A program made the position numbers and the translations under genes. DNA of 64,000 nucleotides from contig NZ_CP089469.1 in assembly GCF_021233435.1 (NCBI RefSeq), forward strand, positions 1 to 64,000, given 5' to 3'. The DNA is from Halobacterium noricense (GTDB taxonomy: Archaea > Halobacteriota > Halobacteria > Halobacteriales > Halobacteriaceae). Shown one piece after another: positions 10,418-43,881 of the stretch (the first letter of the stretch is position 1; each line of letters opens with the position of its first letter). The notes under the pieces are model-generated. The model saw nothing but the letters and a program-made list of their open reading frames with translations. It did not search any database and was not told the DNA's origin.

Positions 10418-10445
10418 TGTTGTACTCCCAAAGAACTCGGCGTGG

Positions 10446-11471: not shown

Positions 11472-11474
11472 ATC

Positions 11475-11887: not shown

Positions 11888-12283
11888 ATGATTCGAACAC
11901 TCGTCGGTGTCCTCGGCGCTATCTCAGCGCTGTTCCCGGACGAAATCGTCGAGCTCTTCGAGAAACTCGCGATTTCGAATCCAGACGAGGGAACAGTGAG
12001 AGGGTGGATACGTCCAGCAGTCCGGTCGGAGGGTGTTCTGATAGCTGCGCTTTCACTCTTTAACGGGCGAGCATACGCGTTGCTGATGAATCTTACCGGC
12101 GTGTTCGGTGCGATAGTCCTCTTATTTCCCGACCTGTATCAGAGATTTGCCACCGCGTTCCTGTACGAGCGTCCAGAGTCGATAGAATGGAACGAGCGAT
12201 TCCGCTTGGGCATTCGGGCTATCGGCGCACTCTATGTCTTTTTAGCGGCGAAGACGTACAGAGAGCGTCACAACGATACTTGA
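11888..12283 (+). CDS. Membrane-associated protein of unknown function
   Basis: A 131-aa protein with about three hydrophobic segments separated by charged stretches (FPDEIVELFEKLAI, LFPDLYQRFATAFLYERPESIEW). It looks like two repeats of a similar half (LGAISALFPDEIVELFEKLA / FGAIVLLFPDLYQRFATAFL), which suggests an internal duplication. Family not recognised. The ATG at 11888 is preferred over one 36 bp upstream. Confidence 0.65.
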   Translation: MIRTLVGVLGAISALFPDEIVELFEKLAISNPDEGTVRGWIRPAVRSEGVLIAALSLFNGRAYALLMNLTGVFGAIVLLFPDLYQRFATAFLYERPESIEWNERFRLGIRAIGALYVFLAAKTYRERHNDT

Positions 12284-23949: not shown

Positions 23950-25692
23950 TCACTCTTTCGTCGCGCGTTCAAGCGCTCGCTCGAGCTGCGCTCGAATCGC
24001 TGTAAAGCGGGCGATCAGGCCGCGCATCCAACCGTCGGGGACGATGACGATCGCCTCGCCATCGTCGAGGCGTTCGAGGTCGCTTTCGGCGATCGGATGC
24101 GTTTCATCCTGGAGTTCCTGGCGGCCGACGGAGCGTCCGTCACGGTCATGTACGGGGACGGACCGGCGCTGTTCCTCACGGCCGATCTGTGACCGGGCGT
24201 ACTCGACGCTCGCTGCATCGCCGACCCGCATGATTACTGATTGGACGAGGCCGCTCAGTAGCGCATTCGCGCGGTCTTTCCCGTAGGCGTCGTGGAGCTG
24301 TGCGACCGACTGGACGCCGAGCAGGAGTTGGGTGTTCCGGCCCCGTCCCGCGTTGATCAGGTCACCGATCTTCCGGAGACTAGGAAGGCGCGCGAACTCG
24401 TCCAGGACGAAATACGTATCTTGGTCGTCAGCAAGCGCAAAGCGTGCTGCCCAGTCGATGAAGAATCGAAATGCGGGTTGGACCGCGTCACCCTCTGTGA
24501 TCGGGAAGTCCAAGAGCAACGTCCGCCCCTGTGGGTCCTGCATGTACTCGCGGATCGAGAACTCGCCCGCTTCAGCGAAGTCGCCGCGGAAGAGGTCAGC
24601 GATGATCTGCTGAAAGTTCGCGTAGACGCCTGCAGCCTGTCGTTCTGAATCCGGATCGATTGCCGAGGCCGCCGCAGTGAGATCCGAATGTTCGGTAAGC
24701 TGCTCGTGCATCTCTTGTTTATCGGTCGACTGGACAAACGCCACAAGATCCGCGTTCGTCGGCGTTGTGTCGTCCGCTTGGGCTTCCCGGTGGAGATACG
24801 TCACGACCGCAACGAACAGCTGGCGTGCGGCTGGACTGAAGAACTCAGATCCCTCCGTTTTAGGAAACAGTGCTCGGCCGATTTCGTCGATATCGCCCTC
24901 GCGTTCGATTTCGGCGAAGAGATTCCAGTGTGCGGTTGCGCCCGTCGACGAGAGGTAAATCAGGTCCTCGTGGTTGTGGTCGCGCTCGAGGATGTCCTGA
25001 TATTCGCCTTTGTAGTCGAAGACGACAAACGGATCGTCAGCCCCAGCCTGCATCTGATGGGAGAGATGTTTGATCGTCTCCGTCTTCCCCGCGCCCGTCT
25101 CCCCGAGGACGAGAATTGAACGGTCCTTCTGCAGTGGGAAAAACCGTGAGAGGCTCATGTGATCGCTCACAGCAGAGAGTCCCCGAAACGGCAGGACGTA
25201 GTTCCCGTCGCTGATGATTCTATAGAGTTCGCGTTCCGTGTCCCAGGTACGCAGTCGCTGGCCAGTATAGGCTGTAGCGCCGAGGATGCCGATGAAGCCG
25301 CCGACGCGGAGTAGCGTGAACTGCTCGACGAGCGGGAGGGCCATGCCGGTCAGATATCCCGCCTGATGGAGGATGAGCTCGGCCAGTTGTGCGAGCAGGA
25401 GGACGTGGAACGCCCAGAACAGTTTGAGGTGTGCTGGAAAGAGCAGGACAGTTCCGACTGCCCCGACCAGGTAGAACAGCGGGACGAGCCAGAGTGCGCG
25501 ACTGCGATGTAACCCTTCGAATTTGAGGGCAGTGAAATTCGCCCGCTCGAGGATGGCATACACCCAGGGAAACAGCAGCGCGGCCGCCATCACCGCCACG
25601 ATCTTGAAGAAGATCTCTACCTCGTCCTCTTGCCGGTAGTCCTCAGTTTGAGACTCGGAATCGGTACGTTTGCTCACGAGTTCACTCTCCAA
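23950..25692 (-). CDS. VirD4/TraD-like coupling ATPase, copy 1
   Basis: A 580-aa membrane-anchored motor of the type IV coupling-protein family. Three or four hydrophobic segments occur in residues 28-145. Walker A is LGETGAGKTET (about 196-206); the Walker B region is FVLDEFARLPSLRKIGDLI, followed by GRGRNTQLLLGVQSVAQL, both typical of VirD4/TraD. It would move DNA or protein through the membrane. Clearly related to the protein at 31163. No relaxase lies beside it; instead two small genes precede it. Confidence 0.85.
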   Translation of the reverse strand: MESELVSKRTDSESQTEDYRQEDEVEIFFKIVAVMAAALLFPWVYAILERANFTALKFEGLHRSRALWLVPLFYLVGAVGTVLLFPAHLKLFWAFHVLLLAQLAELILHQAGYLTGMALPLVEQFTLLRVGGFIGILGATAYTGQRLRTWDTERELYRIISDGNYVLPFRGLSAVSDHMSLSRFFPLQKDRSILVLGETGAGKTETIKHLSHQMQAGADDPFVVFDYKGEYQDILERDHNHEDLIYLSSTGATAHWNLFAEIEREGDIDEIGRALFPKTEGSEFFSPAARQLFVAVVTYLHREAQADDTTPTNADLVAFVQSTDKQEMHEQLTEHSDLTAAASAIDPDSERQAAGVYANFQQIIADLFRGDFAEAGEFSIREYMQDPQGRTLLLDFPITEGDAVQPAFRFFIDWAARFALADDQDTYFVLDEFARLPSLRKIGDLINAGRGRNTQLLLGVQSVAQLHDAYGKDRANALLSGLVQSVIMRVGDAASVEYARSQIGREEQRRSVPVHDRDGRSVGRQELQDETHPIAESDLERLDDGEAIVIVPDGWMRGLIARFTAIRAQLERALERATKE

Positions 25693-29177: not shown

Positions 29178-29399
29178 ATGACTGATTCGAGAAGTGGCTG
29201 TCTTGTTGTACGATCTGAAGGACTTGGTAGACGCTTCCGAGAAGAGTGGGGGGTTGACCGAGCTATGTGCGATGGAAATTCGGTGTGGCTCACCGCGTGG
29301 CAGGTTAAAACCCTGCTGGCACTTTTAGAGAAAGCGCCAGACAGCGCCGGAATATCTGTGCGCTGGTATGGAGATACTGTGCGGTGGTTTGGGGATTGA
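29178..29399 (+). CDS. Possible 73-aa small protein
   Basis: An open frame whose second half (VWLTAWQVKTLLALLEKAPDSAGISVRWYGD) looks protein-like; an internal ATG at 29265 could be the true start. No recognisable domain. Confidence 0.35.
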   Translation: MTDSRSGCLVVRSEGLGRRFREEWGVDRAMCDGNSVWLTAWQVKTLLALLEKAPDSAGISVRWYGDTVRWFGD

Positions 29400-31008: not shown

Positions 31009-31162
31009 CGGTACACAGTACAATGGCATACCATCCCATTAATGGTAATGTCGTACCGGTCAATTCGCAGTCGTACTAAACAGCTGATTCTGAGCAAACG
31101 TGCCGAAATTTACTGCTTTGTGACCCGTTCTTTGACATCCTGCTACATCTCGTTGATCTGAG

Positions 31163-32749
31163 TCAGTTTACAACCGTTTCTCGGTTCTGGCAGTCTCCAT
31201 TGACGCATTCGGAGTCCGTGACGACGTCGCCACAGTAAGGACACCGTTCGTCGATTGAATCAACTTCTCGTCCCTCGGTCGTGGAGCCAGTATCGGTGAT
31301 GTACTCAGCAACATCTTCATACAGGTCGATCTGCGCATCAACCCACCCGTCGTTTCGCACGATAATCCCCCATCCCGGTGCGAAATCCCCGAACTCGCCT
31401 TTGGCCATCGCGTGCTTCTCAACATCCTCAGTCGATGTTCCAGAAACCTCGCCATCGGCGTTATATTCAGGGATGTCCTGCTCTTCCCAGTACGTGCCAA
31501 CCCTGCTCCGTGCGAACGCGATACTCGAGGAGTCATTGAGCCGGAGAATGATCGTCGAGAGCAGTCCAGAAAGGAGTGCATCGCCCCCGTCGCGACCATA
31601 CCGATCATACAGCTGTGCAACTGACTGCAACGTGATGAGTGCCCGCGTGTCTTGCCCGGCCCCGACGTTCACGAGATCCCCGATGCGCCGTAGTGGTGGC
31701 AAGCGAGCAAACTCATCGAGAACAAAGTACGCGCTCTGATCGCCATCGTCGAGCGCAAACCGAATTGACCAGTCGATAGTAAACCGAATGAGTGGCTTCG
31801 TGGATTCGCCGAGCCGTTGCGGATAGTCGATGATCAAGACCTTGCCCTGTGGGTCGTCCATGTACTGGCGAATCGACCAGCTCCCTGCCTCGCAGAGATC
31901 GCCCTGGAACATATTTCGAACCTCCTTGCGGAACGACGCCATGACGCCCTGCGACTGTTCGGACGCGTCAGGGTCGATGTAGTCAGTGATCCCCTGGAGA
32001 TCAGGATGCTCCGAGAGCGTTTCAGCGAGTTCTTCGACCGTCGTTGATTCGATCCACGTTACGAGGTCCTCATTCGTGGGTGTGGTTCCATCAGGCGCGT
32101 CTCGCCGCATGACTTTGAGAACCGCAGCGAACAATTGACGTGAGGCATCGGCGAAGAAATCGGAGCCATCAGATGGAGCCGGGAATAGTTCTCTAGCGAG
32201 CTCTTCGCATTCCTGTTCAGATTCGACTTCCTCGAAGATATTCCACTGGACATCGGCTTTCCGACCTGAAAGGACAATGCGCTCATCTTCGTCGAGGTGA
32301 TCCTGGAAATCCGTTTTGTGGTCGTAGATGATGAACGGCGTTTGCTCATCGGTTTTGTCGCGTATCTGGTCCACGAGCAGTTTCGCCGCGTTGGTCTTCC
32401 CCGACCGAGTCGCCCCCAGAATCCCGATTGATCCCGTCACGTCGATGGGAATCATCCGCCGCAGTAGACGACCGCTCAAGTGGTCTGTCTCGTTGATGTG
32501 ATTGACTGGAAGCCCAACCTCAGAGTCGTCGAGCCGCTCCGACGAGAGCGTTAGCTGCGGTGGGCGATCTCCCCAGTACCGATAGAGAATGAACGGGCTT
32601 GCAAGAAATGCCAGCCCCCAGATTGAGAGAGGGATGACTGGGAATTCTGGAGTCGGGAGGTAGAAAAGCCAGACGAGGAGCAACAGAATCCACCCAACAA
32701 CGAACCACGCCGGACGAACGTAGTACTGGAACCGCTTCGTCAGACTCAT
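31163..32749 (-). CDS. VirD4/TraD-like coupling ATPase, copy 2
   Basis: A 528-aa motor with two N-terminal membrane helices (about 15-60), Walker A LGATRSGKTN (111-120), and YFVLDEFARLPPLRRIGDLVNVGAGQDTRALITLQSV, the VirD4/TraD Walker B region. A C-terminal zinc ribbon (CPYCGDVVTDSECVNGDC) is an addition that may bind a partner. It overlaps the relaxase-like gene by 4 bp, so it probably receives the relaxase-DNA complex. Confidence 0.85.
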   Translation of the reverse strand: MSLTKRFQYYVRPAWFVVGWILLLLVWLFYLPTPEFPVIPLSIWGLAFLASPFILYRYWGDRPPQLTLSSERLDDSEVGLPVNHINETDHLSGRLLRRMIPIDVTGSIGILGATRSGKTNAAKLLVDQIRDKTDEQTPFIIYDHKTDFQDHLDEDERIVLSGRKADVQWNIFEEVESEQECEELARELFPAPSDGSDFFADASRQLFAAVLKVMRRDAPDGTTPTNEDLVTWIESTTVEELAETLSEHPDLQGITDYIDPDASEQSQGVMASFRKEVRNMFQGDLCEAGSWSIRQYMDDPQGKVLIIDYPQRLGESTKPLIRFTIDWSIRFALDDGDQSAYFVLDEFARLPPLRRIGDLVNVGAGQDTRALITLQSVAQLYDRYGRDGGDALLSGLLSTIILRLNDSSSIAFARSRVGTYWEEQDIPEYNADGEVSGTSTEDVEKHAMAKGEFGDFAPGWGIIVRNDGWVDAQIDLYEDVAEYITDTGSTTEGREVDSIDERCPYCGDVVTDSECVNGDCQNRETVVN

Positions 32750-33291
32750 CGACTATGTCCCTGTCCACGGTCCTGCTCCTGCTCCTGGCTAATCTGCTCC
32801 TGTTCCTGCTCTTGGCCCACTGACTCGTCAAGGGCCTGGTCGAGGGCGTGCTCAACGCCCTGCTCCTGCTCAATTGAATGCTCGTGCGCTCGGTCACGAA
32901 TTTGGTCGAGATCCTCCCTGTCGATCCAGAGCGGGTCGCCAGGCTGGTCAGCGCGCCCAGTCGCGACCACGTGCGCGTGAGGACGGTCACCACCATCGCG
33001 ATGGACGGCATAGCCCCAGTCAACACCCTCGCGACTACCGATGGTCTCACGGATGGTTTGCCGTGTCGCGCGCCCGATTTCCTTGTTATCGAGCTGTTCC
33101 GCATTCTCGGGCGAGATGATGAGATGGCGACTCATCCCATTCTCCTCGGAACGGTCGAGCAGATGCTGCTGCTCGCTCTCATCCATTTCCTGGCCCGTTC
33201 GGTCGCGCAGGTTCTCTTCCTCGTGCTCGATGTAGCGCATCAGCGCCCCCGTGTCTCGGCGCTTAAAATCAGAGTCGATGACCGTTGTCAT
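32746..33291 (-). CDS. Relaxase-like HUH nuclease
   Basis: A 181-aa protein with relaxase hallmarks: a Tyr near the N-terminus (Tyr20 in LMRYIEHEE), the second motif MSRHLIISPE (53-62), and the metal-binding triad His97, His105 and His107 in AVHRDGGDRPHAHVV. This matches the HxDx...PHxH motif of MOB relaxases, which nick DNA at oriT. The C-terminus is Glu/Gln-rich and low-complexity. It overlaps the coupling ATPase and the RHH-like gene by 4 bp each. Small for a relaxase, with no helicase or primase domain. Confidence 0.72.
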   Translation of the reverse strand: MTTVIDSDFKRRDTGALMRYIEHEEENLRDRTGQEMDESEQQHLLDRSEENGMSRHLIISPENAEQLDNKEIGRATRQTIRETIGSREGVDWGYAVHRDGGDRPHAHVVATGRADQPGDPLWIDREDLDQIRDRAHEHSIEQEQGVEHALDQALDESVGQEQEQEQISQEQEQDRGQGHSR

Positions 33292-33761
33292 TGGTTGCCC
33301 TCACGTAGTGCTTCGAAATCGAGTCCACTGCCGTCCTGATCAGAGTCATCTTCAGCAGTTGCGCTCTGGTCGTCATCCCCGCCGCTAGCGAGATCGTCAA
33401 CGTCGTCCTCACGGAGTCGTCGCGCACCGGTTTGCAAGGCCTCTCGAATAGCCGCCTCGCCGTGTTGTTGCTTCACAAGTTCGAACGCAGCCACAGCATA
33501 GACGCCAGTCTTTGCATTCAAATCCTGTATCTCCCGGGCAGTGTCCTCCATGTCTGTGAGACCGTCATCGAGGAGGTCTTGCAGCCGTTCAGATGCGCGC
33601 GTTTCAGCAGAGACCGCACCCTCGCGTTCGCGACGAAGCCCCTCACGAACGAGTTCGAAAACGACGGTTGAACGAGTCGTGTCCTGGTCGTCGGCCAACT
33701 CGTCCAATTCGCGTAAGGTCTGTTCGTCGCTGTAGAAGGTAATTTCCTGATCACGCGCCAT
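33288..33761 (-). CDS. RHH-like mobilisation accessory protein
   Basis: A 157-aa protein, helical and acidic. The N-terminus (EITFYSDEQTLRELDELADDQDTTRSTVVFELVREGLRRE) fits a ribbon-helix-helix DNA-binding fold. The position directly upstream of, and overlapping, the relaxase gene is that of MobC/TraY-type accessory proteins that bind oriT. Start at MARDQEIT; the frame upstream overlaps the tnpB right end. Confidence 0.72.
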   Translation of the reverse strand: MARDQEITFYSDEQTLRELDELADDQDTTRSTVVFELVREGLRREREGAVSAETRASERLQDLLDDGLTDMEDTAREIQDLNAKTGVYAVAAFELVKQQHGEAAIREALQTGARRLREDDVDDLASGGDDDQSATAEDDSDQDGSGLDFEALREGNQ

Positions 33762-33839
33762 GGGAATCTCCCCCGTTTTCACAGGCATCTGTTTTGTGGG
33801 ACACCGACGGGATACTGTCTTTCCAGTCTCGTTCAGTGC

Positions 33840-33990
33840 GTCAACTGCCCCGCGCACGGTGGCGCAGGGCTTGTCAGTGAACTCGGCCTCTCCCGACAGT
33901 TAGTCGGACGGGACGAATCCCCGATTCGGCGTCACTGTTCCTGACTTCAGGGCGAGTTGACTGTCGCCCGTCCGCCGCGACGACTGTAGG
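33840..33990 (-). ncRNA. Probable omega-RNA at the tnpB 3' end (element 1)
   Basis: TnpB proteins use a guide RNA transcribed across the 3' end of tnpB and the element right end. The expected terminal hairpin is visible at 33847-33870; the guide would be the sequence just beyond it. Extent is approximate. Confidence 0.4.
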
Positions 33991-35126
33991 CCGCGACGGA
34001 CGTACCGCCATCCAACATTTTTCGCTCCAACATAGTCCGCATTCGCTGTCGCACCACACTTCTCGCACTCGAACTCCGCCTGCCTGACGCGATTGCCTTC
34101 GCTAGTGTGTCCACACTCGGGACACCGCCGACTCGTGTTCTCCGGATCAACGTACTCAACACTGATGCCTTCCGCGTCAGCCTTGTACTCCACGAGGTCA
34201 ACGAGCTGGCGGTGCGCCCACTGGTGGAACTCTTTCACCGGCGGCGCACGTTCCCTGATGTGTCTCAGGTTCTCAACCGCGATGTACTCGCAGTTATGCT
34301 CCAGTGCTTCCTCGATGATGTCGTTGGCCACGCGGTGGAGGACGTCTCGAACGTATCGGGATTCCCTACCGCTCATCTGCTGAATCGTCCGATGTGCGGA
34401 TTGTGTACCAGTCTGTTGGAGGTTGCCACGTATCCGCTCGAATTCCCGATGGCGGTGTCGAAGTTCCCTGCCGGACGCGAAGTACGCCGTACTGGTGGTG
34501 GCGATGTTGACGATACCGAGGTCAACGCCGAGAACTGTCCTGTCCTCGTCGTCGCCCTGTTGTTCGACCTGTTTCTCGGGCTTCGGTTTGCGAAAGCCGA
34601 GATGCAGGTAGTAGTCGCCATCACGCCGAGAAAGCGTGGATTCGGTGACCTCCCAGTCCTCATCGTTGAGGTACTGGTGTTGGTAGCCATCTTCGTCGTC
34701 AGGCAACGCAAGATCACACCGAATACGGTCGTCAACCGTTGCGAGTGAGACTGTTCCGTCGTCGAATATCGTCATCGTCCGGGTGTCGTATTTCACTGTC
34801 TCGGCGGTGAACTCCGGACGTGATGTCTTGTACTCCTCGTCCAGTTCTTTGATTTCTTCGACGCCGGAGAGTGCGGCTGCGGCTTGGTGGGTGGCGAGGA
34901 TTGCGTGCTGACTCCCGAGACGCGTTTCCTCTCGCACATCGCCGTAGGCGAGGTCTTGGAGGTACGTCTTCCGCGTTTCACCGTGTTCCCATCCGATCTG
35001 GCTGCTGGTGTTGCAGGCAGTTTGCCACTCGTTGATAGTGGCATCAAGCAGTTGCTTCTGCTCGTGGGTGAGGATGGGGCGAGTGATTGCGGTGCGTCTC
35101 AGGTAGTCGTCTGCCACGAGTTTCAA
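33900..35126 (-). CDS. tnpB: TnpB RNA-guided endonuclease, element 1
   Basis: A 408-aa protein of the IS1341-type TnpB family, ancestor of Cas12. The RuvC catalytic residues are present: Asp202 in LGVDLGIVN, Glu285 in IAVENLRH, and Asp364 in ANADYVGAKN. The zinc finger is CPECGHTSEG...CEKCG (335-357). All active-site positions are intact, so it may still cut DNA. It sits next to the mobilisation cassette. Confidence 0.92.
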   Translation of the reverse strand: MKLVADDYLRRTAITRPILTHEQKQLLDATINEWQTACNTSSQIGWEHGETRKTYLQDLAYGDVREETRLGSQHAILATHQAAAALSGVEEIKELDEEYKTSRPEFTAETVKYDTRTMTIFDDGTVSLATVDDRIRCDLALPDDEDGYQHQYLNDEDWEVTESTLSRRDGDYYLHLGFRKPKPEKQVEQQGDDEDRTVLGVDLGIVNIATTSTAYFASGRELRHRHREFERIRGNLQQTGTQSAHRTIQQMSGRESRYVRDVLHRVANDIIEEALEHNCEYIAVENLRHIRERAPPVKEFHQWAHRQLVDLVEYKADAEGISVEYVDPENTSRRCPECGHTSEGNRVRQAEFECEKCGATANADYVGAKNVGWRYVRRGLQSSRRTGDSQLALKSGTVTPNRGFVPSD

Positions 35127-35230
35127 TAGAGAGTAAAGGTACTTAATAGTTGGTAGGTTTGTGGCAGCGGGCGTCGGCTTCCACCCCGCCCACGGTGGGG
35201 CGGGGAATCCGCCTTGCTACCTAGTTTGAG

Positions 35231-35244
35231 AGGGTGTCATAGAA
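35231..35244. repeat. 14-bp inverted repeat, left member
   Basis: AGGGTGTCATAGAA, paired with its exact reverse complement at 35702-35715. The pair bounds a 485-bp segment with one small membrane gene; possibly a MITE-like unit. Confidence 0.5.
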
Positions 35245-35324
35245 CGGCTCTCACACAACCTATGTGAGTACCCTGATTCGATAAGTACAGGTGAACTACT
35301 TACCGCTGGTTCTATCGACCCGGC

Positions 35325-35585
35325 TCAGAATATGTCGATAACAGCACCAAGGGCAAAACCGATCCCCAATGCGAGCGTTGAGTAAAGGGCTTGTTTACTG
35401 GTAGCACGAAAAATACCGGAAAGCATTATTCCGATTGAGCAACCGAAGAGAAGGCCGTGAACTGCTGTCTCATCACTTCCGACCGGCCCTGATGGTGCCA
35501 TGACTTCAACGAGAATTATGCCCATGAAGCCGAGTAGAAAGAGGGCTCCATCTCGTCGTATGTTCCGTTCCTGCCGCTCAATCAT
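35325..35585 (-). CDS. Small membrane protein
   Basis: An 86-aa protein with about three hydrophobic helices (FLLGFMGIILVEVMAP; GLLFGCSIGIMLSGIF; LALGIGFALGAVIDIF). Enclosed by the 14-bp inverted repeats. Lower G/C than its neighbours. Function unknown. Confidence 0.6.
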   Translation of the reverse strand: MIERQERNIRRDGALFLLGFMGIILVEVMAPSGPVGSDETAVHGLLFGCSIGIMLSGIFRATSKQALYSTLALGIGFALGAVIDIF

Positions 35586-35701
35586 ACGTCACTGTTGGGA
35601 GAATACTTGAATAGTCTTTGTCACTCGTATTGTTAAGTTCGCAGACCTACTTATCGGCCAATTCACCGTAGAAGTGGATGTAATCAACACTATGAGAAGA
35701 C

Positions 35702-35715
35702 TTCTATGACACCCT
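35702..35715. repeat. 14-bp inverted repeat, right member
   Basis: TTCTATGACACCCT, exact complement of 35231-35244. Between here and the next inverted repeat is a GC-rich stretch with hairpins (GGGACCC...GGGTCCC; GCCCCCG...CGGGGGC). Confidence 0.5.
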
Positions 35716-35903
35716 TACAGAGGCTTAACAGCCACCACAAGCGAGGCGACCGAAGGATGGGACCCTCACACGGGTCCCGACTGACGGAGCCGAGCGCACG
35801 CCCCCGAGCGGAGCGACGGGGGCATTCGTGATGCGGTAGCGGTTCAATGCGCACTCGTAGATCTCATCGTCTTTCCAGCCATGATCGGCCCGAGACAGCT
35901 ATC

Positions 35904-35945
35904 TTAACCAACACTCGGCGGCAAATGAGAACTCGTGTTGGTTAA
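35904..35945. repeat. 42-bp inverted repeat, TTAACCAACA family, copy 6
   Basis: Perfect arms TTAACCAACA / TGTTGGTTAA, spacer 22 bp, 184 bp upstream of the orc1/cdc6 gene. Confidence 0.85.
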
Positions 35946-36129
35946 TACGTCTCAGAAAATCTGAGGACGCTATTCAGCAACTGACACCCGCCGTTAGCCG
36001 TTACAACCTGCAAACGGTGGATAGACGGATTTGTGCAGTAGATGGGTATTTCGAGTGTACAGTGCCAGGACTGGCAATTTAGATTCAGCATACACAACGA
36101 CTTTTACCCTCGGGTGAAATGTCCGACTC

Positions 36130-37626
36130 ATGACCCGGCCGCAGAAGGATAGCACTCCAGACCAAGCGGAAATCACTGACGACAGTGCAATACCCGATGT
36201 AGACGGCGAATCTGGTGCTGACAGTGAGACTGCTACGGAATCAGATTATGGATCTGCCGAGACTGACCCTGATTCGGACACAGAAGAGGGGAGCAGTACT
36301 AGCGGATTGAATGAGACGATTCGGGATCGCGTCGAGAGCCAACTGAACGAGAAGGATTCGACGACGTCAGTGTTTGCCAATAAGGACCTCGTTCACCCGG
36401 ATACGATCATTGACGCCAATCGCATCGTTGGTCGCGACGAGCAGCTAGATCGGATCATCGAACTACTCCTCCCCGCAGTGAAGGGAGGGCGGCAAGACAA
36501 TATTCTCCAATTCGGCCCCTCTGGAACGGGCAAATCCCTCATCATCAACGCGACTGCCGAGGAGGTCGCGACGCTCTGTGAGAATCGCGGTGTCGACTTC
36601 GGCGTCATTCGCATCAACTGCCAGCGGATCAGCTCCGAGGATAAAGCCGTCTACGCGATGCTGCAGGACGTGTCTGAGAAGACCGGTGCTGAGGTCGGCA
36701 TCAAAAAACAGGGAACGGCAACCTCAGACAAGTACGACCGCCTCTACGAGATCGTCAATGAACGCTTCGAGGCGATCCTATTCATCCTGGACGAGATCGA
36801 CTATCTCACCGGGAATAGCAACGACGACGAGCCGGATTACTCTCGACTGCTCTATCAACTCTCACGCGCTACCGCCGAGGGCGACATCGAAGGCCGGTCA
36901 GCAGTCGCTGCACTCACCAACGACACCCAGTTGATACAGAAATTGGATGGGCGGACAGCCAGTTCGTTCAATCCAGATAACGTCGTGTTCCCCGACTACG
37001 ACGCCACCCAGATTCGAGCCATCCTCGAGCATCGAGAAGATGCGTTCCGTGATGGCGTACTCTCCGGCGATGTGATACCGCTTGCCGCCGCGTTCGCTGC
37101 TCAAGACGAGGGTGACGCTCGGAAGGCAATCGACTTGCTCAGAAAGGCAGGTGAGATGGCCGACCGCGAAGGAAGCGGGACCGTCGAGGAGCGCCATGTT
37201 CGAACTGCACAGGGGAAACTCGACGTCGACCAAGCACAGAAGACGATCAACGGGCTCTCCGCGCAGAAAAAATACACTCTGTACGCCTTGACGTCGGTCG
37301 CTGTTCACGCGACTCGTTCACTCGATTCGATCCCCGGTCCAGTCGCCTATGAGGTCTACAGCTACGTGACCGAGAGCATCGATGCGGTCACGAAATCGGA
37401 CGATTCCTTCCGACGGTATGCAAAGGAATTAGCGTCGTACAACATCATCTCGAAGGATCGGAGCGGCCGCGGGCGCGGACGTGGTGTTCACAACGAGTAC
37501 GCCTTCGCTATCGATCCCGAGACTGTCGAAGAGACGATTGAGCGGGACAGCCGGATAACTGAGATCGAACAGGATTCCCTCCAGCTTGTCGTGGAATCCC
37601 AGCTCGACGAATTCAATAGCACGTGA
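36130..37626 (+). CDS. orc: Orc1/Cdc6 replication initiator
   Basis: A 498-aa AAA+ protein that binds the origin and loads the MCM helicase. The N-terminal 80 residues are acidic and low-complexity. Then Walker A GPSGTGKS (129-136), Walker B FILDEIDYL, the sensor-2-like GDARKAIDLLRKAGE, and a C-terminal winged helix. The stop TGA lies at the junction with the tnpB element right end, so the last residues may have been altered by that insertion. An origin-like region lies 1.6 kb away, beyond the insertion. Confidence 0.93.
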   Translation: MTRPQKDSTPDQAEITDDSAIPDVDGESGADSETATESDYGSAETDPDSDTEEGSSTSGLNETIRDRVESQLNEKDSTTSVFANKDLVHPDTIIDANRIVGRDEQLDRIIELLLPAVKGGRQDNILQFGPSGTGKSLIINATAEEVATLCENRGVDFGVIRINCQRISSEDKAVYAMLQDVSEKTGAEVGIKKQGTATSDKYDRLYEIVNERFEAILFILDEIDYLTGNSNDDEPDYSRLLYQLSRATAEGDIEGRSAVAALTNDTQLIQKLDGRTASSFNPDNVVFPDYDATQIRAILEHREDAFRDGVLSGDVIPLAAAFAAQDEGDARKAIDLLRKAGEMADREGSGTVEERHVRTAQGKLDVDQAQKTINGLSAQKKYTLYALTSVAVHATRSLDSIPGPVAYEVYSYVTESIDAVTKSDDSFRRYAKELASYNIISKDRSGRGRGRGVHNEYAFAIDPETVEETIERDSRITEIEQDSLQLVVESQLDEFNST

Positions 37627-37780
37627 CATCCTCTCCGCCGTAAACGGCGGGGCTTCCCACGACAGTGGGATTCCGGCTGTGCCGTAGGTTTCAGTCCGAG
37701 TAGGCCGCGAGCGTCATCTGCGAGTATTTCTCGCTCGTCTCCCGGTAGACTGTGGCGCTGTCACAGGCGCTCCCGTTCCG
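37624..37780 (-). ncRNA. Probable omega-RNA at the tnpB 3' end (element 2)
   Basis: The stem-loop at 37634-37650 and another (CCCACGACAGTGGG, 37655-37668) lie between the tnpB stop and the element end, as in TnpB guide RNAs. Extent is approximate. Confidence 0.45.
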
Positions 37781-38926
37781 AGGCGAGTCATCGCGTTCCG
37801 GTTCCCAAGGAACGCTCTCTCCCCACGGATCTACGCGACTGGCGATATTCGCCGCCGCGTTGATGTCTGCTTGGAACTCAGTTACGTGACAGTCGTCGTT
37901 CGTACACTCGAACTCCGCTTGTGAATTACGAGATCCAATGTGTCCGCATTCATGGCACGTCTGGCTTGTATAGCGCGGGTTCACGTACTCGACCGGGACA
38001 CCGGCCTCGGTGGCCTTATCTTCGACCCGGCCTTGAAGCCGAGCGAACGCCCATGCGTGAAGGCGTCGGTTCATGTACTCCCCGTAGTCCAAGTTCTCGC
38101 GGATGAAGGACAAGTCCTCCATCACAATCACGGGATCGTCGAACTGTCGGGCGTACTCGACGGCTTTTCGAGACGCCTTCTCGACGATATCTGTCAGCGC
38201 GTTCTGATAGTGGTTGAATCGTTCACCGATCCGCCACTCGGCAGCGTCGCGCTCTTGGAGCCGCCGGAGTGTCGTGAACATCTCTTTGCGAAGTGCTCGA
38301 GCACGACTGCCACTCTCGAGCATCGGCTTCGTCGGCGTGTTCCGCTTGAGGGCACAGCCCGTAATCAACGTAGATTCGCCGATATCGAACCCGATGTACG
38401 TCTCGTCACCGTCCATCTCGGGTTCTTCGACCGAGTACGTGACGGTAATGTGCAACACCCAGCTACTCCGGTTCTGCTGGAGCCGGATCTGTCCGGCCTT
38501 GGCACCCTCATTGAGGAGATCGTGCCACAACGATTCTTGCTCGGGGTTGATTCGCAGCGGAATCCAGAAGTTCGTCCCGTAGCCCGGCAGGGGCACGTTC
38601 CAGCAAATCTCGTGGTGGCGAGATTCATCGCGGTCGAACTTCGCGGCTTGATTTGTGAGCCGGATCGGGTGTTCGTCGTCTAACTCGCTGGCGTTGTACG
38701 TTTTTCGGAGCTTCGGGACGTAGCTGCACAGTGCAGCCTTCGCCTGGTAAGGCAGGTCGAACGGCGTTACTACGTCGGACACGCCGTTCATCGTATCCGC
38801 ACCGGAGTCGAACGCATCGTGCAACGCCTCGCGGTAGGTGGAGAGAAGGCGACGGAGACGCACCGCCTTCCCCTCCGTCGGTGGGGCAAGTGTCGCCTCG
38901 AGAGTTTTCGTCACCTCCCCTGCCAT
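37691..38926 (-). CDS. tnpB: TnpB RNA-guided endonuclease, element 2
   Basis: A 411-aa TnpB of a different subgroup from element 1. Active-site residues: Asp181 in IGFDIGES, Glu270 in VIVMEDLSF, Asp354 in FQADINAAAN. Zinc finger CHECGHIGS...CTNDDC (324-346). The C-terminal tail ends DSATVYRETSEKYSQMTLAAYSD, as in many haloarchaeal homologues. Start at MAGEVTKTLE; the open frame further upstream is non-coding. Confidence 0.92.
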   Translation of the reverse strand: MAGEVTKTLEATLAPPTEGKAVRLRRLLSTYREALHDAFDSGADTMNGVSDVVTPFDLPYQAKAALCSYVPKLRKTYNASELDDEHPIRLTNQAAKFDRDESRHHEICWNVPLPGYGTNFWIPLRINPEQESLWHDLLNEGAKAGQIRLQQNRSSWVLHITVTYSVEEPEMDGDETYIGFDIGESTLITGCALKRNTPTKPMLESGSRARALRKEMFTTLRRLQERDAAEWRIGERFNHYQNALTDIVEKASRKAVEYARQFDDPVIVMEDLSFIRENLDYGEYMNRRLHAWAFARLQGRVEDKATEAGVPVEYVNPRYTSQTCHECGHIGSRNSQAEFECTNDDCHVTEFQADINAAANIASRVDPWGESVPWEPERDDSPRNGSACDSATVYRETSEKYSQMTLAAYSD

Positions 38927-38980
38927 ACCACACGATACACATCCTACACACTTTTTGGTTCCGATGCTGTAGAACCGTCT

Positions 38981-39106
38981 GTGAACCGAAGAAACGTTAC
39001 AATCCGGGAAGAGCAAGACGAATGGATCCGGGAGAATCATATCAACCTGTCGAGCCTCGTCAGAGAGTGTATCGACGAACGTATGGAATCCAGTTCCGCC
39101 GATTAA
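38981..39106 (+). CDS. 41-aa RHH-like protein divergent from tnpB
   Basis: A GTG-started small protein, VNRRNVTIREEQDEWIRENH..SSLVRECIDERM, fitting a ribbon-helix-helix DNA-binding unit. Divergent from tnpB across 54 bp and inside the same element, so it is probably a regulator of tnpB. Confidence 0.6.
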   Translation: MNRRNVTIREEQDEWIRENHINLSSLVRECIDERMESSSAD

Positions 39107-39205
39107 CGGCGGTTGCGTAGTCGAGTGACGCGATTCACGCCTGCCCTTTGGGGCGAGATTCTTCACTGTTTAAAAGATGGGACTGGTCGAGGCGGTACGT
39201 AGCCA

Positions 39206-39506
39206 CCCCCCGTTTGCTGATTGTATACTGTGAGAGGCCCCATGTGCAGAATGTATTCTCTCGATCTGGGGTCCGAGCATCATCGACGAACGTCTGACAG
39301 ACGTCATCCCCCCATTTACTGATTGTATCTCGCTACACCAGAGGAAGTCGGAGGTGGTATCGGAGGCAAGAGAACGTTCCCGCATTGCTCATCGAGGAAA
39401 TATTCGATAGACCAGCCGTAACAGCCCAGATCGGCTGTTGAGAACTGAAATCTTCCCAAGCGAACAGTCGCAACCCACCCTCTCCCCCCATTTACTGATT
39501 GTATCT
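39206..39506 (+). repeat. ORB-like repeats R1-R3, forward
   Basis: Three copies of a 23-bp unit, six C followed by ATTTACTGATTGTATCT, at 39206-39228 (three differences), 39308-39330 and 39484-39506 (the last two identical). The C6 run reads as a G-string on the other strand. Confidence 0.8.
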
Positions 39507-39530
39507 CACCAAAAGGCGGGTGGGGGTTGA

Positions 39531-39826
39531 GAGGAGAATCACGACAAGAATATCTAAAACCAGGAAAATCGCGCTTATAGACTTTGAGATAGCTGATCTG
39601 GTGAATATCTGCAACTAGGTTTGTAGATAGAAGGTTTTATGCAAAGGGACTGGTAACAATATCCGTAATACAGTAAGAGCGTAATGGAAAGGAAGATATA
39701 ATTTCTATATGGAGAGGAATGGCTTCGGAACTGTTCTTCGTCTTTATCTCCTCTAAACGTCTTCTAACAGCTGATCTCGACATTTTGGTCATTCTCGATA
39801 TTAGGATGTCCCCCGGCCCTTTCTCA
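39531..39826. other. AT-rich candidate unwinding element
   Basis: A stretch visibly poorer in G/C than its surroundings, with runs such as GAATATCTAAAA and GATATAATTTCTATAT, between the oppositely oriented repeats. No credible gene. Confidence 0.5.
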
Positions 39827-39874
39827 AGATACATTCCGCAAATGGGGGGAGGGGGAGCAATACAATCAGCAAAG
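39827..39874 (-). repeat. ORB-like repeats R4-R5, reverse
   Basis: R4 (39827-39849) is AGATACATTCCGCAAAT then six G, the reverse complement of the R1-R3 unit with a few changes. R5 (39859-39874, AATACAATCAGCAAAG) keeps the core without the G-string. Confidence 0.7.
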
Positions 39875-39902
39875 CAGTCGCTATATTCTCTCCTGCTCAA
39901 CG

Positions 39903-39943
39903 TTACCCCACGCCAGCGATCTATGATTGAATGCGTGGGGTAA
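39903..39943. repeat. 41-bp inverted repeat, TTACCCCACG variant, copy A
   Basis: Arms TTACCCCACG / CGTGGGGTAA, spacer 21 bp, 36 bp past the stop of the gene at 39979. Same length and spacing as the TTAACCAACA family; the arms fit TTAMCCMACR. Confidence 0.8.
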
Positions 39944-39978
39944 CTACAGGGAGAACCACTCGAGGATATCTGGAGCAA

Positions 39979-40371
39979 TCAAGATTCTCGGTTCGCGTTC
40001 ACCGGTGCGATATACTCGTTTTTCCAGGAGTCGCCGTCACGCCATTGCCAGTAAAAGTAGTGATAGCCCGGCTTCGTCTCTTTGATCGTGATGTAGGCTC
40101 CACCAGCTGGGACATCATCGTAGTCTGCTGGATCAGTCGAGACGTCTCGTTCCTCGAGTTCGTTCTGTTTGGCTTCGCTGATCGATTCCTCTTCCTGTTT
40201 TTGGTCAGCCATACGCTCGCGTTCGGCGCGTTTCCAAGCCGCCAGCTTCGTGGCATACGTTGCAATCGCATCGAGTCGATCGGGCGACTGCTTGTCCAGT
40301 GGTTCGAGAATATAGTTCGGTAGCTCTGGCGCTTGCGGTTCTGTTGTGGGCGGCTCTGAAGATTCGTCCAT
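39979..40371 (-). CDS. Hypothetical protein bracketed by TTACCCCACG inverted repeats
   Basis: A 130-aa protein: Pro/Glu-rich N-terminus, an Arg/Glu/Lys-rich helix (LAAWKRAERERMADQKQEEESISEAKQ), and a C-terminal aromatic beta segment (GYHYFYWQWRDGDSWKNEYIAP) like the YxYWR...KYIG motif of small plasmid proteins. The start lies 3 bp from one inverted repeat and the stop 36 bp from the other. It may bind them. Function unknown. Confidence 0.65.
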   Translation of the reverse strand: MDESSEPPTTEPQAPELPNYILEPLDKQSPDRLDAIATYATKLAAWKRAERERMADQKQEEESISEAKQNELEERDVSTDPADYDDVPAGGAYITIKETKPGYHYFYWQWRDGDSWKNEYIAPVNANRES

Positions 40372-40373
40372 AG

Positions 40374-40413
40374 TTACCCCACGTCTCGCTTTGAGTATCA
40401 ATATGTGGGGTAA
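40374..40413. repeat. 40-bp inverted repeat, TTACCCCACG variant, copy B
   Basis: Arms TTACCCCACG / TGTGGGGTAA, spacer 20 bp, 3 bp upstream of the gene at 39979-40371, where it would cover the promoter. Confidence 0.8.
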
Positions 40414-40459
40414 CTCAGACGGCAAGAGACCGAAACGCGTCTGACGTAGTTATTTGAAG

Positions 40460-40477
40460 TCACAGAAAGCACAGAAC
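40460..40477 (+). repeat. 9-bp CACAGAA repeats upstream of parA2
   Basis: TCACAGAAA at 40460 followed by GCACAGAAC at 40469, an exact 9-bp step, ending 2 bp before the first possible parA start. The same 9-mer recurs in the partner gene. Confidence 0.7.
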
Positions 40478-40488
40478 GGATGGAAGCC

Positions 40489-41259
40489 ATGACTCGGAGA
40501 ATCGGGATCACGAATCAGAAGGGAGGTGTGAGTAAAACCACGAATACAATCAACGTCGCTGGCGGGCTCGCTGCCGATGGTGTAGACGTTCTCGCCGTCG
40601 ATATGGACCCTCAGGGATACCTCACGCATCGGCTTGGGTTCGAAGACGAGTACACTTCGGACCCACCGTCGCTATACGATGCGCTTCAGTCGCCCGCCGA
40701 CCACGACGTCGACGATCTCGTTGTCACTCACGAGGAGTTCGATCTCCTTCCGGCCAACATCGATATGTTCCATCTTGAGCAGGACCTCATCGCGAGCGGG
40801 ATGCGTCCCCGGCTGCGGTTGAAGACGGTCCTGGAGAACGCGACCGCGTGGGACGTCGTCCTTATCGATGCGCCGCCGTCGCTCGGCCCACTGAATGATA
40901 ACGTCGTTCTTGCCACCGAGGAACTGCTCGTCCCGGTCGAAGCCGACGAAAGTTCCCAGCTCGCGCTCAATCATCTACTCCGCCAGTTGGATACGCTCGA
41001 GGATAACTACGACACACACGTCGATGTCCTCGGTCTCATTGTTTCGAACGTGGCCTATCCGCTGGACAATGAACAGCAGGCGGCCATTGACTGGTTCAAC
41101 GAGCGTTTCGAAGGACGCGTCGGGGTGTGGACCGTTCGAAGCCGGGCAGCAATCAAGCGGGCAGTGAAAGACCAGGGTTCGGTGTTCGCCGAAGACGCCG
41201 AGGAAGTCGATATGACCGACGTGTATGCGCAGATAGCTGCGGAGGTGGCCGATGAGTGA
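40489..41259 (+). CDS. parA: ParA-family partition ATPase (locus 2)
   Basis: A 256-aa ATPase with NQKGGVSKTT (the usual GVGKTT has Ser in place of Gly), Walker A' DMDPQGYLT, and VVLIDAPPS. It probably partitions the replicon whose origin lies just upstream. It overlaps the partner gene by 8 bp. The start is taken at MTRRIGIT; an ATG at 40480 would add three residues. Confidence 0.93.
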   Translation: MTRRIGITNQKGGVSKTTNTINVAGGLAADGVDVLAVDMDPQGYLTHRLGFEDEYTSDPPSLYDALQSPADHDVDDLVVTHEEFDLLPANIDMFHLEQDLIASGMRPRLRLKTVLENATAWDVVLIDAPPSLGPLNDNVVLATEELLVPVEADESSQLALNHLLRQLDTLEDNYDTHVDVLGLIVSNVAYPLDNEQQAAIDWFNERFEGRVGVWTVRSRAAIKRAVKDQGSVFAEDAEEVDMTDVYAQIAAEVADE

Positions 41260-41635
41260 CGAAATCGACGAACGTCTGAGCCGTCGGTTTGACGACGACC
41301 AGGACGACGAGAACGAGACCATTTCTGAGAAGTCACAGAACGACATGAATTCTAGTCAATCAGGGGCCGAGAGGAAGTCACAGGCTTCACAGAGAGCACA
41401 GAACATCAAGAAGGAATGGAATGTGCGGAGTTTCTACCTCGATGACGGCCTCGATAGTAATCTCACGACGGCGTTCAAACGACTGGATCTCTCGCTTTCG
41501 GAGGCTGACGCCGAGGTCAATCTCAAGAAGACACGGCACTTCTACCCATTGATCGTCGAACTCGGTCTAGAACGCTTGGCGGAAATGGACGTCACAGAAG
41601 TCACAGAACGATTGGACGACGAAGATTCAGCATAG
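41252..41635 (+). CDS. ParA partner protein (locus 2)
   Basis: A 127-aa acidic protein, homologous to the partner at 863 over the C-terminal 80 residues (NIKKEWNVRSFYLDDGL...RHFYPLIVELGLERLAE). The N-terminal linker differs and follows its own DNA repeat. It probably binds the CACAGAA sites and stimulates ParA. A C-terminal fragment of a near-identical gene lies at 43644-43751. Confidence 0.8.
   Translation: MSDEIDERLSRRFDDDQDDENETISEKSQNDMNSSQSGAERKSQASQRAQNIKKEWNVRSFYLDDGLDSNLTTAFKRLDLSLSEADAEVNLKKTRHFYPLIVELGLERLAEMDVTEVTERLDDEDSA
41333..41404 (+). repeat. 9-bp phased CACAGA repeats inside partner gene 2, linker part
   Basis: TCACAGAAC at 41333, TCACAGGCT at 41378, TCACAGAGA at 41387 and GCACAGAAC at 41396; the intervals are all multiples of 9. 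Read in codon phase as Ser-Gln-x / Ala-Gln-x. Confidence 0.72.
41592..41609 (+). repeat. 9-bp CACAGAA repeats at the 3' end of partner gene 2
   Basis: TCACAGAAG at 41592 and TCACAGAAC at 41601. Here they are read as Val-Thr-Glu, a different codon phase from the copies in the linker, so the DNA, not the peptide, is conserved. Confidence 0.75.
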
Positions 41636-41702
41636 GCGATTTCGATTACTCTCCCACGACACTCTTATGTATGACTGGGACGAAGTAATGAATTGAGGGA
41701 GT

Positions 41703-42011
41703 ATGAGTAAAGCAGAGTCTGAAAAAGTAGTGTCTGTATCGTCGCGCGGCCAAGCGACCATTCCCAAAGAGTTCCGGGAGGAACTCGACATCGACACACC
41801 CGGCCGCGTGAAGTTCGTTCGCACCGAGGAGGGCGAAATCGTCGTCCGTCCCATCCACTCGGTCACAGACCTGCGTGGAGTCTTGGAAGGGAAAACCGAC
41901 GAGCAGGGTCGTTCAGCAGTCGAACGACTGCGGGAGGAACGCGAGCAGGACAAGGCTAGTGAAGAGGAGTTGCGGCAGCGCTACGCCAGTGATGACGAGG
42001 CCGACACATGA
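41703..42011 (+). CDS. AbrB/MazE-type antitoxin
   Basis: A 102-aa protein with a SpoVT/AbrB swapped-hairpin DNA-binding domain (VVSVSSRGQATIPKEFREELDI) followed by a helical tail that would block the toxin. It overlaps the PIN gene by 4 bp. Likely represses its own operon. Confidence 0.88.
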   Translation: MSKAESEKVVSVSSRGQATIPKEFREELDIDTPGRVKFVRTEEGEIVVRPIHSVTDLRGVLEGKTDEQGRSAVERLREEREQDKASEEELRQRYASDDEADT

Positions 42012-42436
42012 CAGAGGGGACTGACATTCCCGAGACGATTATCTTCGACGCCGAACCACTCATCGCCTATTTCTGCAACGAACCAGGGAGCGACACCGTC
42101 GAGACGTACGTCGACGCCGTCGAAGGCGCGGCCGATGGATACATCTCAGCGATCAACCTCGCCGAGGTCCACTACGTCGTGCGTGCAATCGACGGCGAGG
42201 AACGCGCTGATGCTGTCGTCGACGTCCTCGAGGAAAGCGGCATCCGTCGCGTCGATACCGAACAGACCTGGGCGTCAGCAGCCGACTTCAAATTCCGCTA
42301 CGCTCCAGCGCTCGGTGATGCCTTCGCGCTCGGGACTGCAGCACACGTCGACGGGATGCTCCTGGTCGGTGCCGACGACGACTACGACGACGTCACCGAC
42401 GTCCCAATCACTCGGTTCCGGACCGAACCGGCATAG
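42008..42436 (+). CDS. vapC: PIN-domain ribonuclease toxin (VapC-like)
   Basis: A 142-aa PIN-domain protein. The acidic metal-binding residues are visible: Asp in IIFDAEPLIA, Glu in INLAEVHY, Asp in ALGDAFALGTA, Asp in LVGADDDYD. VapC toxins cut tRNA or rRNA; the target here is unknown. Coupled to the AbrB-type antitoxin, a likely plasmid-stabilising module. Confidence 0.88.
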   Translation: MTEGTDIPETIIFDAEPLIAYFCNEPGSDTVETYVDAVEGAADGYISAINLAEVHYVVRAIDGEERADAVVDVLEESGIRRVDTEQTWASAADFKFRYAPALGDAFALGTAAHVDGMLLVGADDDYDDVTDVPITRFRTEPA

Positions 42437-42463
42437 ACCCTGGATCTCGTCCCATAGTGGCCG

Positions 42464-43339
42464 CTATGAGTGCTCCTCTGTCCGCTCTTCGAGAAACTCT
42501 CGCAGTTTCGATTCGAAAGACGGTGGAGTAGCCCCGAACGTTGACGCTGCAGATTCGACCACTTCGTCAGTCTCGGCTTCCTCTTGTATCGTTCCCAGTC
42601 CGTAGAGCACTGTGCGGACGACCTCACTGTAGAATTCCTCTTCGTCGTAGCAGAATTGACAGTCGTTTCGCCAGTAGTCGGGGACGAACTGCACACCGAG
42701 TGCCTGGTGTTTGGGACAGATTCCTTTGCGAACCTGCCCGATGTTTCGGAATTCGACCTCCCACGTTCCGTCAGGGGCGATCTCAACGACGAAGTACGCG
42801 CCGAGAAGCGCGTCTGCACCATGGTCTGCCGTTCGGTAGAGGAATGCGGTATTGAGAGCCTTGTTCTTGTAGCGACCGGTGTGTATATGACCAGAGAAGT
42901 ATGCCTTCCCCGCGAAGTGTTCCAGCAGTTCGGGGTGCCAGTAGTGATTCACGAGGATTGTCTCGTCTTCAACTAGTTCGGGATTCTGCGTGAATGTCTC
43001 TCCAGCAACGGTGATACTGTCATCTTCGGGGATGTACGTCCCTGGAAGGTCGTAGTCTTGGAACGGCTGTTCCGGGCCGATTGCCCCGTCCCGATTCCCC
43101 CAGATGTAGAGGAGCTCTCCCCGCTCGTGGAGCGTCTCGAAATACGGCGTGACCGCATCGAGCTGTTCCCGCCCCTCGTCGACGCCATCAAACCATGCGT
43201 TCGTGATATCGCCGACGTGAATTACGAAGTCGAATTCCTCGCCTTCAGTACCGTCGACGACCCGCTCCAGTGAGTCGACATCCCCGTGGTTGTCTCCCAT
43301 ACAAAGAAGTCGGAGCGTCTCATCATCGTTAGTCGTCAT
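42464..43339 (-). CDS. Calcineurin-like metallophosphoesterase
   Basis: A 291-aa enzyme with all five metallophosphoesterase motifs: MGDNHGD, HVGDITN, GNRDG, VNHYWH and SGHIHTGRY. A C-terminal zinc-binding region follows (CPKHQAL...CQFCYDEEEF). YfcE-like, but with added C-terminal domain. Start at MTTNDDE. Convergent with the VapBC-like pair. Substrate unknown. Confidence 0.85.
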   Translation of the reverse strand: MTTNDDETLRLLCMGDNHGDVDSLERVVDGTEGEEFDFVIHVGDITNAWFDGVDEGREQLDAVTPYFETLHERGELLYIWGNRDGAIGPEQPFQDYDLPGTYIPEDDSITVAGETFTQNPELVEDETILVNHYWHPELLEHFAGKAYFSGHIHTGRYKNKALNTAFLYRTADHGADALLGAYFVVEIAPDGTWEVEFRNIGQVRKGICPKHQALGVQFVPDYWRNDCQFCYDEEEFYSEVVRTVLYGLGTIQEEAETDEVVESAASTFGATPPSFESKLREFLEERTEEHS

Positions 43340-43476
43340 TAGTTGACTCCCCGTACTCACTCAGGTGTATAGAAGACCACGTTCACCGTCAAGGAGATAT
43401 CTCATAACAGTCTCTCACTGCTATTCTTGCTAGTCCTTCTCTCCTTAGTGCGAAGCCCCTCTCTGGTTCTTCTGCA

Positions 43477-43499
43477 AGATACATTCAGCAAATGGGGGG
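43477..43499 (-). repeat. Orphan ORB-like repeat R6
   Basis: AGATACATTCAGCAAAT followed by six G, an almost exact reverse copy of the origin repeats, 3.6 kb away from the others and next to gene fragments. Confidence 0.7.
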
Positions 43500-43506
43500 T
43501 GCGATA

Positions 43507-43587
43507 GATGCCAGCCGACTCCAGTACATCTTCATGCTGCGCCGCCTCGAGCTGGTGCAAAGCCTGGTGGATGAGCCGGCCAATTCC
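43507..43587 (+). pseudogene. Fragment of HVO_A0114-type antitoxin gene
   Basis: Encodes DASRLQYIFMLRRLELVQSLVDEPANS, the match of DTSRLQRVLTPRRLELVRSLMEEPAES in the gene at 43882. No start, no end: a remnant. It lies between R6 and a degenerate ORB-like sequence (CCCCATTTCACCGATT, 43586). Confidence 0.65.
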
Positions 43588-43643
43588 CCATTTCACCGAT
43601 TTTCGCTACGCGTGATCGGTGAACCACTTGCTGTGAACTCACG

Positions 43644-43751
43644 AAGATGTGCCACTTCTACCCGCTGATCGTCGAACTCGGCTTGGAACGCTTGGCGGGA
43701 ATGGAAGTCACAGAAGTCACAGAACGATTGGAAAGCAAGGATTTGGGATAA
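43644..43751 (+). pseudogene. C-terminal fragment of a ParA partner gene
   Basis: Encodes CHFYPLIVELGLERLAGMEVTEVTERLESKDLG, the end of the partner at 41252. Both 9-bp repeats (TCACAGAAG, TCACAGAAC) are kept. No functional protein is expected, but the fragment could still act as a weak partition site. Confidence 0.8.
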
Positions 43752-43881
43752 TTGCAGAGGGCGGATACCAGCGTTGTTCATTCACCACAACAACCCTCTA
43801 CCATACGCGCGTTGTCCTACATGGACAATACAGATGCCCCGATGTAGGCGTCAAAAATCCTCGAAGAGGTCGATCCCATCC

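Follow-up and report, generated by a model that had tools for sequence, protein, structure and literature searches.

A predicted MOB module of Halobacterium noricense and a cassette-linked candidate nick site in haloarchaea

Relaxases of the bacterial MOBP family, such as RP4 TraI, VirD2, R64 NikB and the alphaproteobacterial RlxS proteins, have an HUH fold with an N-terminal Tyr motif and an HxD...PHAH motif, a ribbon-helix-helix (RHH) partner, a type IV coupling protein (T4CP), and a nick site (nic) near the consensus (C/T)ATCCTG(C/T) (PMC3772185). Archaeal DNA transfer with VirB4/VirD4-like ATPases is known from the Sulfolobales conjugative plasmids and the Ced/Ted systems, which are without a recognizable relaxase, and a 2023 paper describes archaea as having no apparent relaxase homologues (PMC9905601). 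According to a 2024 paper, it is not yet known which archaeal proteins act as relaxases, and this has slowed the identification of archaeal mobilizable elements (PMC11389934). A relaxase was noted in 2019 as a rare trait among archaeal plasmids, in Haloarcula (PMC6333295), and a 2021 plasmidome study counted MOBP1 profile matches in a lake biofilm community called halobacteria-dominated. Here we describe a 64-kb stretch of Halobacterium noricense DNA (the window; the first 64 kb of the 368.6-kb contig NZ_CP089469.1, in a 3.32-Mb genome of three contigs), in which three adjoining genes encode an RHH-like protein, a small relaxase-like protein and a VirD4-like ATPase (Table 1). These genes very probably constitute the mobilization (MOB) module of a haloarchaeal plasmid. 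The resemblance to the bacterial MOBP systems extends over the features listed above, with the nic as a predicted site and the RHH partner as a putative one, and includes sequence matches to RlxS proteins; unlike the Sulfolobales and Ced/Ted systems, the cassette has a recognizable relaxase gene.

An initial annotation of the window had proposed three genes overlapping by 4 bp in the order of bacterial mob modules. The open reading frames (ORFs) lie exactly where it placed them, both junctions (RHH/relaxase and relaxase/T4CP) are ATGA-type overlaps of 4 bp, and the order recurs among relatives. The window relaxase matches the Pfam Relaxase family (PF03432) with an E value of 4e-5 and 24.3 bits (cut-off 24.6), and a genome search with neighbors in frame included lists it over the cut-off at 24.6 bits; relatives from Halalkalicoccus, Natronococcus, Haloarcula and Halomarina score above it. 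Against NCBIfam MobP1 (NF041450) the protein reaches 3e-7 and 30.1 bits, with a cut-off of 200, and is by these scores a relative of the MobP1 subfamily, not a member. A sequence search of the PDB with the window relaxase alone gave as its best match the NES relaxase, at only E 0.5; the matches in a PDB profile search were lipocalins, which we took as chance.

Tyr20 and the triad of His97, His105 and His107, named in the initial annotation as relaxase residues, are present. Across 14 divergent haloarchaeal sequences, Tyr20, His97 and His105 do not vary, with H or Q at the third His position. Bacterial RlxS-type relaxases from the genome scan have the same Tyr and all three His; four of these are the only bacterial sequences in our relaxase tree. 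The initial annotation had named two outcomes that would refute it, a predicted fold other than HUH and a lack of conservation of Tyr20 and the His triad among homologues, and neither occurred: the residues are conserved as described, and the predicted fold is that of an HUH relaxase. The window model has a mean predicted local distance difference test score (pLDDT) of 71.6, and relaxases top its structural list, with Z scores of 7.2-7.3 to MobA and MobM. The model of a Halalkalicoccus relative (locus L067, pLDDT 85.9) is most similar to the minimal relaxase domain of R1162 MobA (2ns6), with Z 11.7 over 136 residues at 17% identity, followed by NES, TrwC, pCU1 TraI, F TraI and MobM. Rows 1-10 of this list are relaxases, row 11 is a viral Rep HUH domain, and unrelated rows fall below Z 6 except for one at 7.7; Foldseek pairs the same model with MobA at E 3.5e-5 and probability 1.00. 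The models thus support an HUH relaxase fold for this protein. The MobA domain is part of a larger protein, of another MOB class and with a different nic. The haloarchaeal relaxases are about 170-260 aa long, a bare nuclease domain with a charged tail, compared with 480-940 aa for the RlxS-type ORFs that we fetched.

The two partner proteins agree with what had been proposed for them. The window RHH protein matches RHH_1 weakly (E 0.015), and 8 of 12 RHH homologues match the Pfam NikA-like family to which R64 NikA belongs (best 4e-6); by its sequence, the product looks like a relaxosome accessory protein. The coupling ATPase matches TrwB_AAD_bind (PF10412) at 2e-36 and TraG-D_C at 8e-12, with Walker motifs (Walker A GATRSGKT at residue 112), a C-terminal Cys-rich motif and two N-terminal hydrophobic segments (about 10-39 and 36-56), features that identify it as a genuine TrwB/VirD4-type ATPase. 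Its gene stands immediately downstream of the relaxase gene in one short operon, unlike the arrangement in bacterial MOBP systems. Ratios of nonsynonymous to synonymous substitution (dN/dS) against diverged relatives are 0.06-0.13 for relaxase and RHH together and 0.06-0.09 for RHH alone, values indicative of purifying selection on the cassette genes.

Comparison of cassette-adjacent sequences revealed a motif on the cassette coding strand, TTTA(A/T/C)C(T/C)TG^(C/T)C (^ marks the predicted cleavage), which is close to the MOBP nic consensus and is a candidate nick site; its core varies as C(T/C)TG, unlike that consensus. In minimal cassettes of other lineages the motif lies upstream of the RHH gene; in other cases it is downstream of the T4CP gene, by 210-360 bp in Haloarcula and some further loci and by 1.2-1.9 kb in the window clade. 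Sites were ranked with matrices trained on other lineages only, so that the scored sites were outside the training set. The best site in the locus was cassette-adjacent and on the same strand at 40 of 47 loci, which represent 15 lineages and include related, non-independent loci, and at 18 of 19 held-out loci that were fetched afterwards. Among the seven misses is the duplicated plasmid L055, where the ranking chose a copy of the site that is just as good but adjoins the plasmid's other cassette.

When the next 54 nt upstream were searched by Gibbs sampling, with one sequence from each of 12 lineages, a box, AAATCGCAAGACG, emerged at -53/-54 relative to nic, with a good match in 10 of the 12 and an information content of 12.4 bits (shuffles 8.2 +/- 0.2, maximum 8.7). 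The composite pattern (AAATCGCAAGACG, about 31-41 nt, TTTAWCYTG^CC) occurs 23 times in 391 genomes and its reversed control not once, and in 21 of the 23 cases the immediate neighbor is a T4CP or RHH gene of a cassette. Because the pattern was derived partly from the same loci, these counts measure specificity, not discovery. Its 52 matches in 2.9 million viral contigs were taken as chance level.

In the window, we lean towards an origin of transfer (oriT) at 29299-29340. The pattern TTTANCYTGYC occurs four times in the genome and once on the 368.6-kb contig (29299-29309, minus strand), and this predicted nic is kept in all four clade members examined. Cleavage would fall after CCTG in the nic-region sequence AAAGTGCCAGCAGGGTTTTAACCTGCCACGCGG, and the window's TAACCTG^C differs from TATCCTG^C at a single position and has a hairpin on its 5' side. 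The corresponding hairpin of a relative (L033) has perfect 11-bp arms, and its single-stranded DNA folding z is -4.8, versus -3.1 in the window. Two spaced repeats further out are possible RHH binding sites. An ORF at 29178-29399 (+) was considered as a real gene and rejected: it has a stop codon in Halarchaeum L077 and no equivalent start in L078 or L033.

The window's oriT might instead lie upstream of the RHH gene (33762-33850) or in the structured stretch beside the Cdc6 gene, which would change the site only and is compatible with a MOB module. Minimal cassettes of other lineages do have their nic upstream of RHH, the repeats before the window's RHH gene are conserved and palindromic, and the stretch beside Cdc6 is conserved with strong inverted repeats. 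Neither region has a nic motif, in contrast to the contig's sole site at 29299-29309, and we regard this placement as rather unlikely. The initial annotation had pointed to 33760-33840 for an oriT, and the inverted repeats there are indeed conserved but without a nic motif; their core pattern occurs once in the genome, and they are better read as a probable autoregulatory operator of the RHH protein. The stretch beside Cdc6, rejected as an oriT, is more probably a replication origin, given its position and hairpins.

Table 1. Positions of the cassette genes and of predicted elements in the window (^, predicted cleavage).
Feature	Position	Strand	Details
RHH gene	33288-33761	minus	157-aa ORF, ATG start, GGGGGAG upstream
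Predicted HUH relaxase gene	32746-33291	minus	181-aa ORF; Tyr20, His97, His105, His107
T4CP gene, TrwB/VirD4-like	31163-32749	minus	528-aa ORF; PF10412, TraG-D_C
Predicted nic TTTTAACCTG^CC	29299-29310	minus	nick between 29301 and 29300; from motif matrix and MOBP comparison
Hairpin CTGGCGCTTT-ctcta-AAAGTGCCAG	29316-29340	minus	directly 5' of predicted nic
Second small hairpin	29301-29315		overlaps nic
Two 21-bp-spaced repeats, AAACCACCGCACAG and ATACCAGCGCACAG	29357-29390	minus	diverged form of box AAATCGCAAGACG
ACAG-N4-CTGT repeats	33776-33819	minus	upstream of RHH gene; conserved in alignment with L077 and L033
Structured intergenic stretch	35718-35945		beside Cdc6; inverted repeat 35904-35945; GC-rich hairpins 35759-35778 and 35800-35823; conserved
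Orc1/Cdc6 replication gene	36130-37626	plus	in the shared element; Haloarcula japonica and Halorussus halobius copies are about 97-98% identical to it in DNA

The cassette also occurs beyond the window: the relaxase is present in 32 of 391 haloarchaeal genomes (12 of 86 genera), some copies being annotated as 'relaxase' or typed MOBP. The relaxase profile matched solely in the window's order in a phylum-wide sample, and a scan of IMG/VR with the window relaxase found no relative. The RHH-relaxase-T4CP order recurs at about 50 haloarchaeal loci, in a survey whose RHH detection overlooks some Haloarcula RHH genes seen in closer locus comparison. In Haloarcula the relaxase mostly comes directly after VirB4 and two RHH genes. 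The pNYT1-type plasmids of this genus, with annotated 'relaxase' and 'TraD' (PMC6333295), encode the same relaxase and T4CP families as the window and carry VirB4 and further upstream genes, whereas the window form is minimal, with its nic candidate placed elsewhere. Outside Haloarcula most cassettes consist of the three genes alone, as on a 16.7-kb plasmid of Halomarina and a small one of Haladaptatus. Thus, the proposal of a minimal haloarchaeal version holds for the window cassette, which has no VirB4 match in the 64 kb, and not for the family as a whole, which includes the VirB4-linked forms. From this gene content, the window cassette is probably mobilizable and the VirB4-adjoining Haloarcula cassettes are probably self-transmissible. 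The window genome, in which the relaxase is single copy and no second relaxase match was found, has three VirB4 loci of a divergent type (at 260k on the window's contig C2, 1260k on C1 and 38k on C3; L063-L065). They are candidate channels; the one on the window's contig includes a TrbL_3/VirB6 protein (9e-135) and a 1274-aa HerA-like ATPase.

Several relatives have unusual arrangements. At locus L038 (genome G073, 9851-11920), a single ORF of 690 aa encodes a relaxase-T4CP fusion in which both Pfam domains are present. The 16.7-kb Halomarina plasmid (L052, NZ_CP100460.1) has terminase and phage minor head protein genes in addition to the cassette, and is a possible phage-plasmid. The 21,460-bp Haladaptatus plasmid record (L055, NZ_CP085343.1) has two cassettes and looks like about 10.7 kb duplicated head to tail, and in H. 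jeotgali plasmid 2 (L051, NC_014299.1 154620-185039) a segment of about 18.8 kb is repeated, with a cassette in each copy.

Near-identical copies of the window genes are present in three haloarchaeal families. The relaxase and RHH genes share 99.4-100% DNA identity with those of Haloarcula japonica and Halorussus halobius (99.6-100% for Haloarcula japonica alone), the surrounding 31063-37622 is about 95-98.6% identical in the two, and 39175-43791 is 96.5% identical in Halorussus halobius. For rpoB, taken as the control, the window genome is 84% identical to that of Haloarcula japonica. Since the relaxase and RHH genes are 99.6-100% identical at this level of rpoB divergence, the shared segment has moved recently between families.

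Other features of the neighborhood were recorded. Two stand-alone TnpB-like ORFs flank the Cdc6 gene, at 33900-35126 (-) and 37691-39166 (-), the former being missing from the equivalent position in Halarchaeum L077. A weak match to the Rfam HgcC RNA lies at the end of the Cdc6 gene (37610-37708, -; E 0.0066, 26.7 bits, gathering threshold 50). A second TrwB-type coupling-protein ORF at 23950-25692 (-) matches PF10412 at 3e-45, has no neighboring relaxase and is kept in Haloarcula japonica; it is possibly a remnant of another cassette.

We propose that the NikA-like RHH protein would bind both oriT and its own promoter region, and that the relaxase, using Tyr20 and a metal held by His97, His105 and His107, would nick one strand at the MOBP-like nic. 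In the window the predicted nick is CCTG^CC, on the minus strand between 29301 and 29300, and the relaxase would remain covalently attached to the 5' end. The TrwB/VirD4-like ATPase would then pass the relaxase-bound single-stranded DNA to a transfer channel. The cassette is without a channel of its own, and should therefore be mobilizable, needing a type IV secretion system (T4SS) in trans.

Several observations weigh against a MOB module of this kind. The window relaxase lies at, not clearly over, the Pfam cut-off and far under that of MobP1 (30 vs 200 bits), and Q replaces the third His in some relatives. At loci L037/L067, L043, L096 and L118, no copy of the motif was found close to the cassette. 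The predicted nic of the window clade is 1.85 kb past the T4CP gene and overlaps the 73-aa ORF at 29178-29399 (+); it has no canonical box at -53, and nothing in the window genome matches the composite pattern. Finally, the nearest VirB4 locus, which is of a divergent type, lies far off on the window's contig (C2, about 260 kb). An alternative is that the cassette works with a non-VirB channel, such as cell-fusion mating bridges or vesicles, and has the T4CP as a stand-alone DNA pump: there is no VirB4 at the window cassette, minimal versions are common, and mating of haloarchaea via cytoplasmic bridges is described in two papers (PMC7749143, PMC7838353). Relatives directly behind VirB4 and the three VirB4 loci of the window genome, one with a strong VirB6/TrbL match, speak against a non-VirB channel and make it improbable in our view. 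The known T4CPs, to our knowledge, also require a T4SS partner.

It is less probable still that the module is decayed or out of use for transfer in this strain. The Halarchaeum T4CP gene is truncated or displaced, and TnpB elements have been inserted near the cassette, but the window genes are intact with low dN/dS and have near-identical copies in three families. The HUH fold is also that of plasmid rolling-circle replication initiators, the structural lists include a viral Rep domain (7kik), and one relative (L055) also matches a Rep-like Pfam family at 5e-4. That the window protein is such an initiator and not a conjugative relaxase nonetheless seems to us very improbable: its catalytic Tyr is N-terminal to the His triad, which is the relaxase order, and relaxases rank over Rep. 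Moreover, a T4CP gene is coupled to it in nearly all loci and VirB4 in Haloarcula, the element has Orc1/Cdc6 for replication, and the linked motif resembles a MOBP nic.

The haloarchaeal cassette is not categorically new. Relaxases are well known, and some of the homologues are already labelled: NCBI annotation names some of them 'relaxase', and MOB-suite types one H. jeotgali plasmid as MOBP, calling 20 of 21 homologue-bearing plasmids non-mobilizable. The initial statement that relaxases have been hard to find in archaea accords with the 2023 and 2024 papers (PMC9905601, PMC11389934) and is qualified by these labels and by PMC6333295. In the searchable literature, which covers few subscription journals and preprints, we found no analysis of an archaeal nic site, nor any of this family, the way it folds or the RHH protein that accompanies it. 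What is new here is the cassette-linked candidate nic motif, with the box AAATCGCAAGACG predicted about 53 nt upstream.

With a conserved candidate, a predicted structure, partners and a predicted cleavage site, nicking in archaeal plasmids becomes directly testable. It is likely that haloarchaea carry a complete relaxase-based conjugation and mobilization system with a bacterial-type nic in a recognizable oriT, that plasmids move by it between families, and that the minimal cassettes are the counterpart of bacterial mobilizable plasmids. If so, the cassette would provide a marker for predicting mobile haloarchaeal plasmids, and its oriT might serve as a tool in haloarchaeal genetics.

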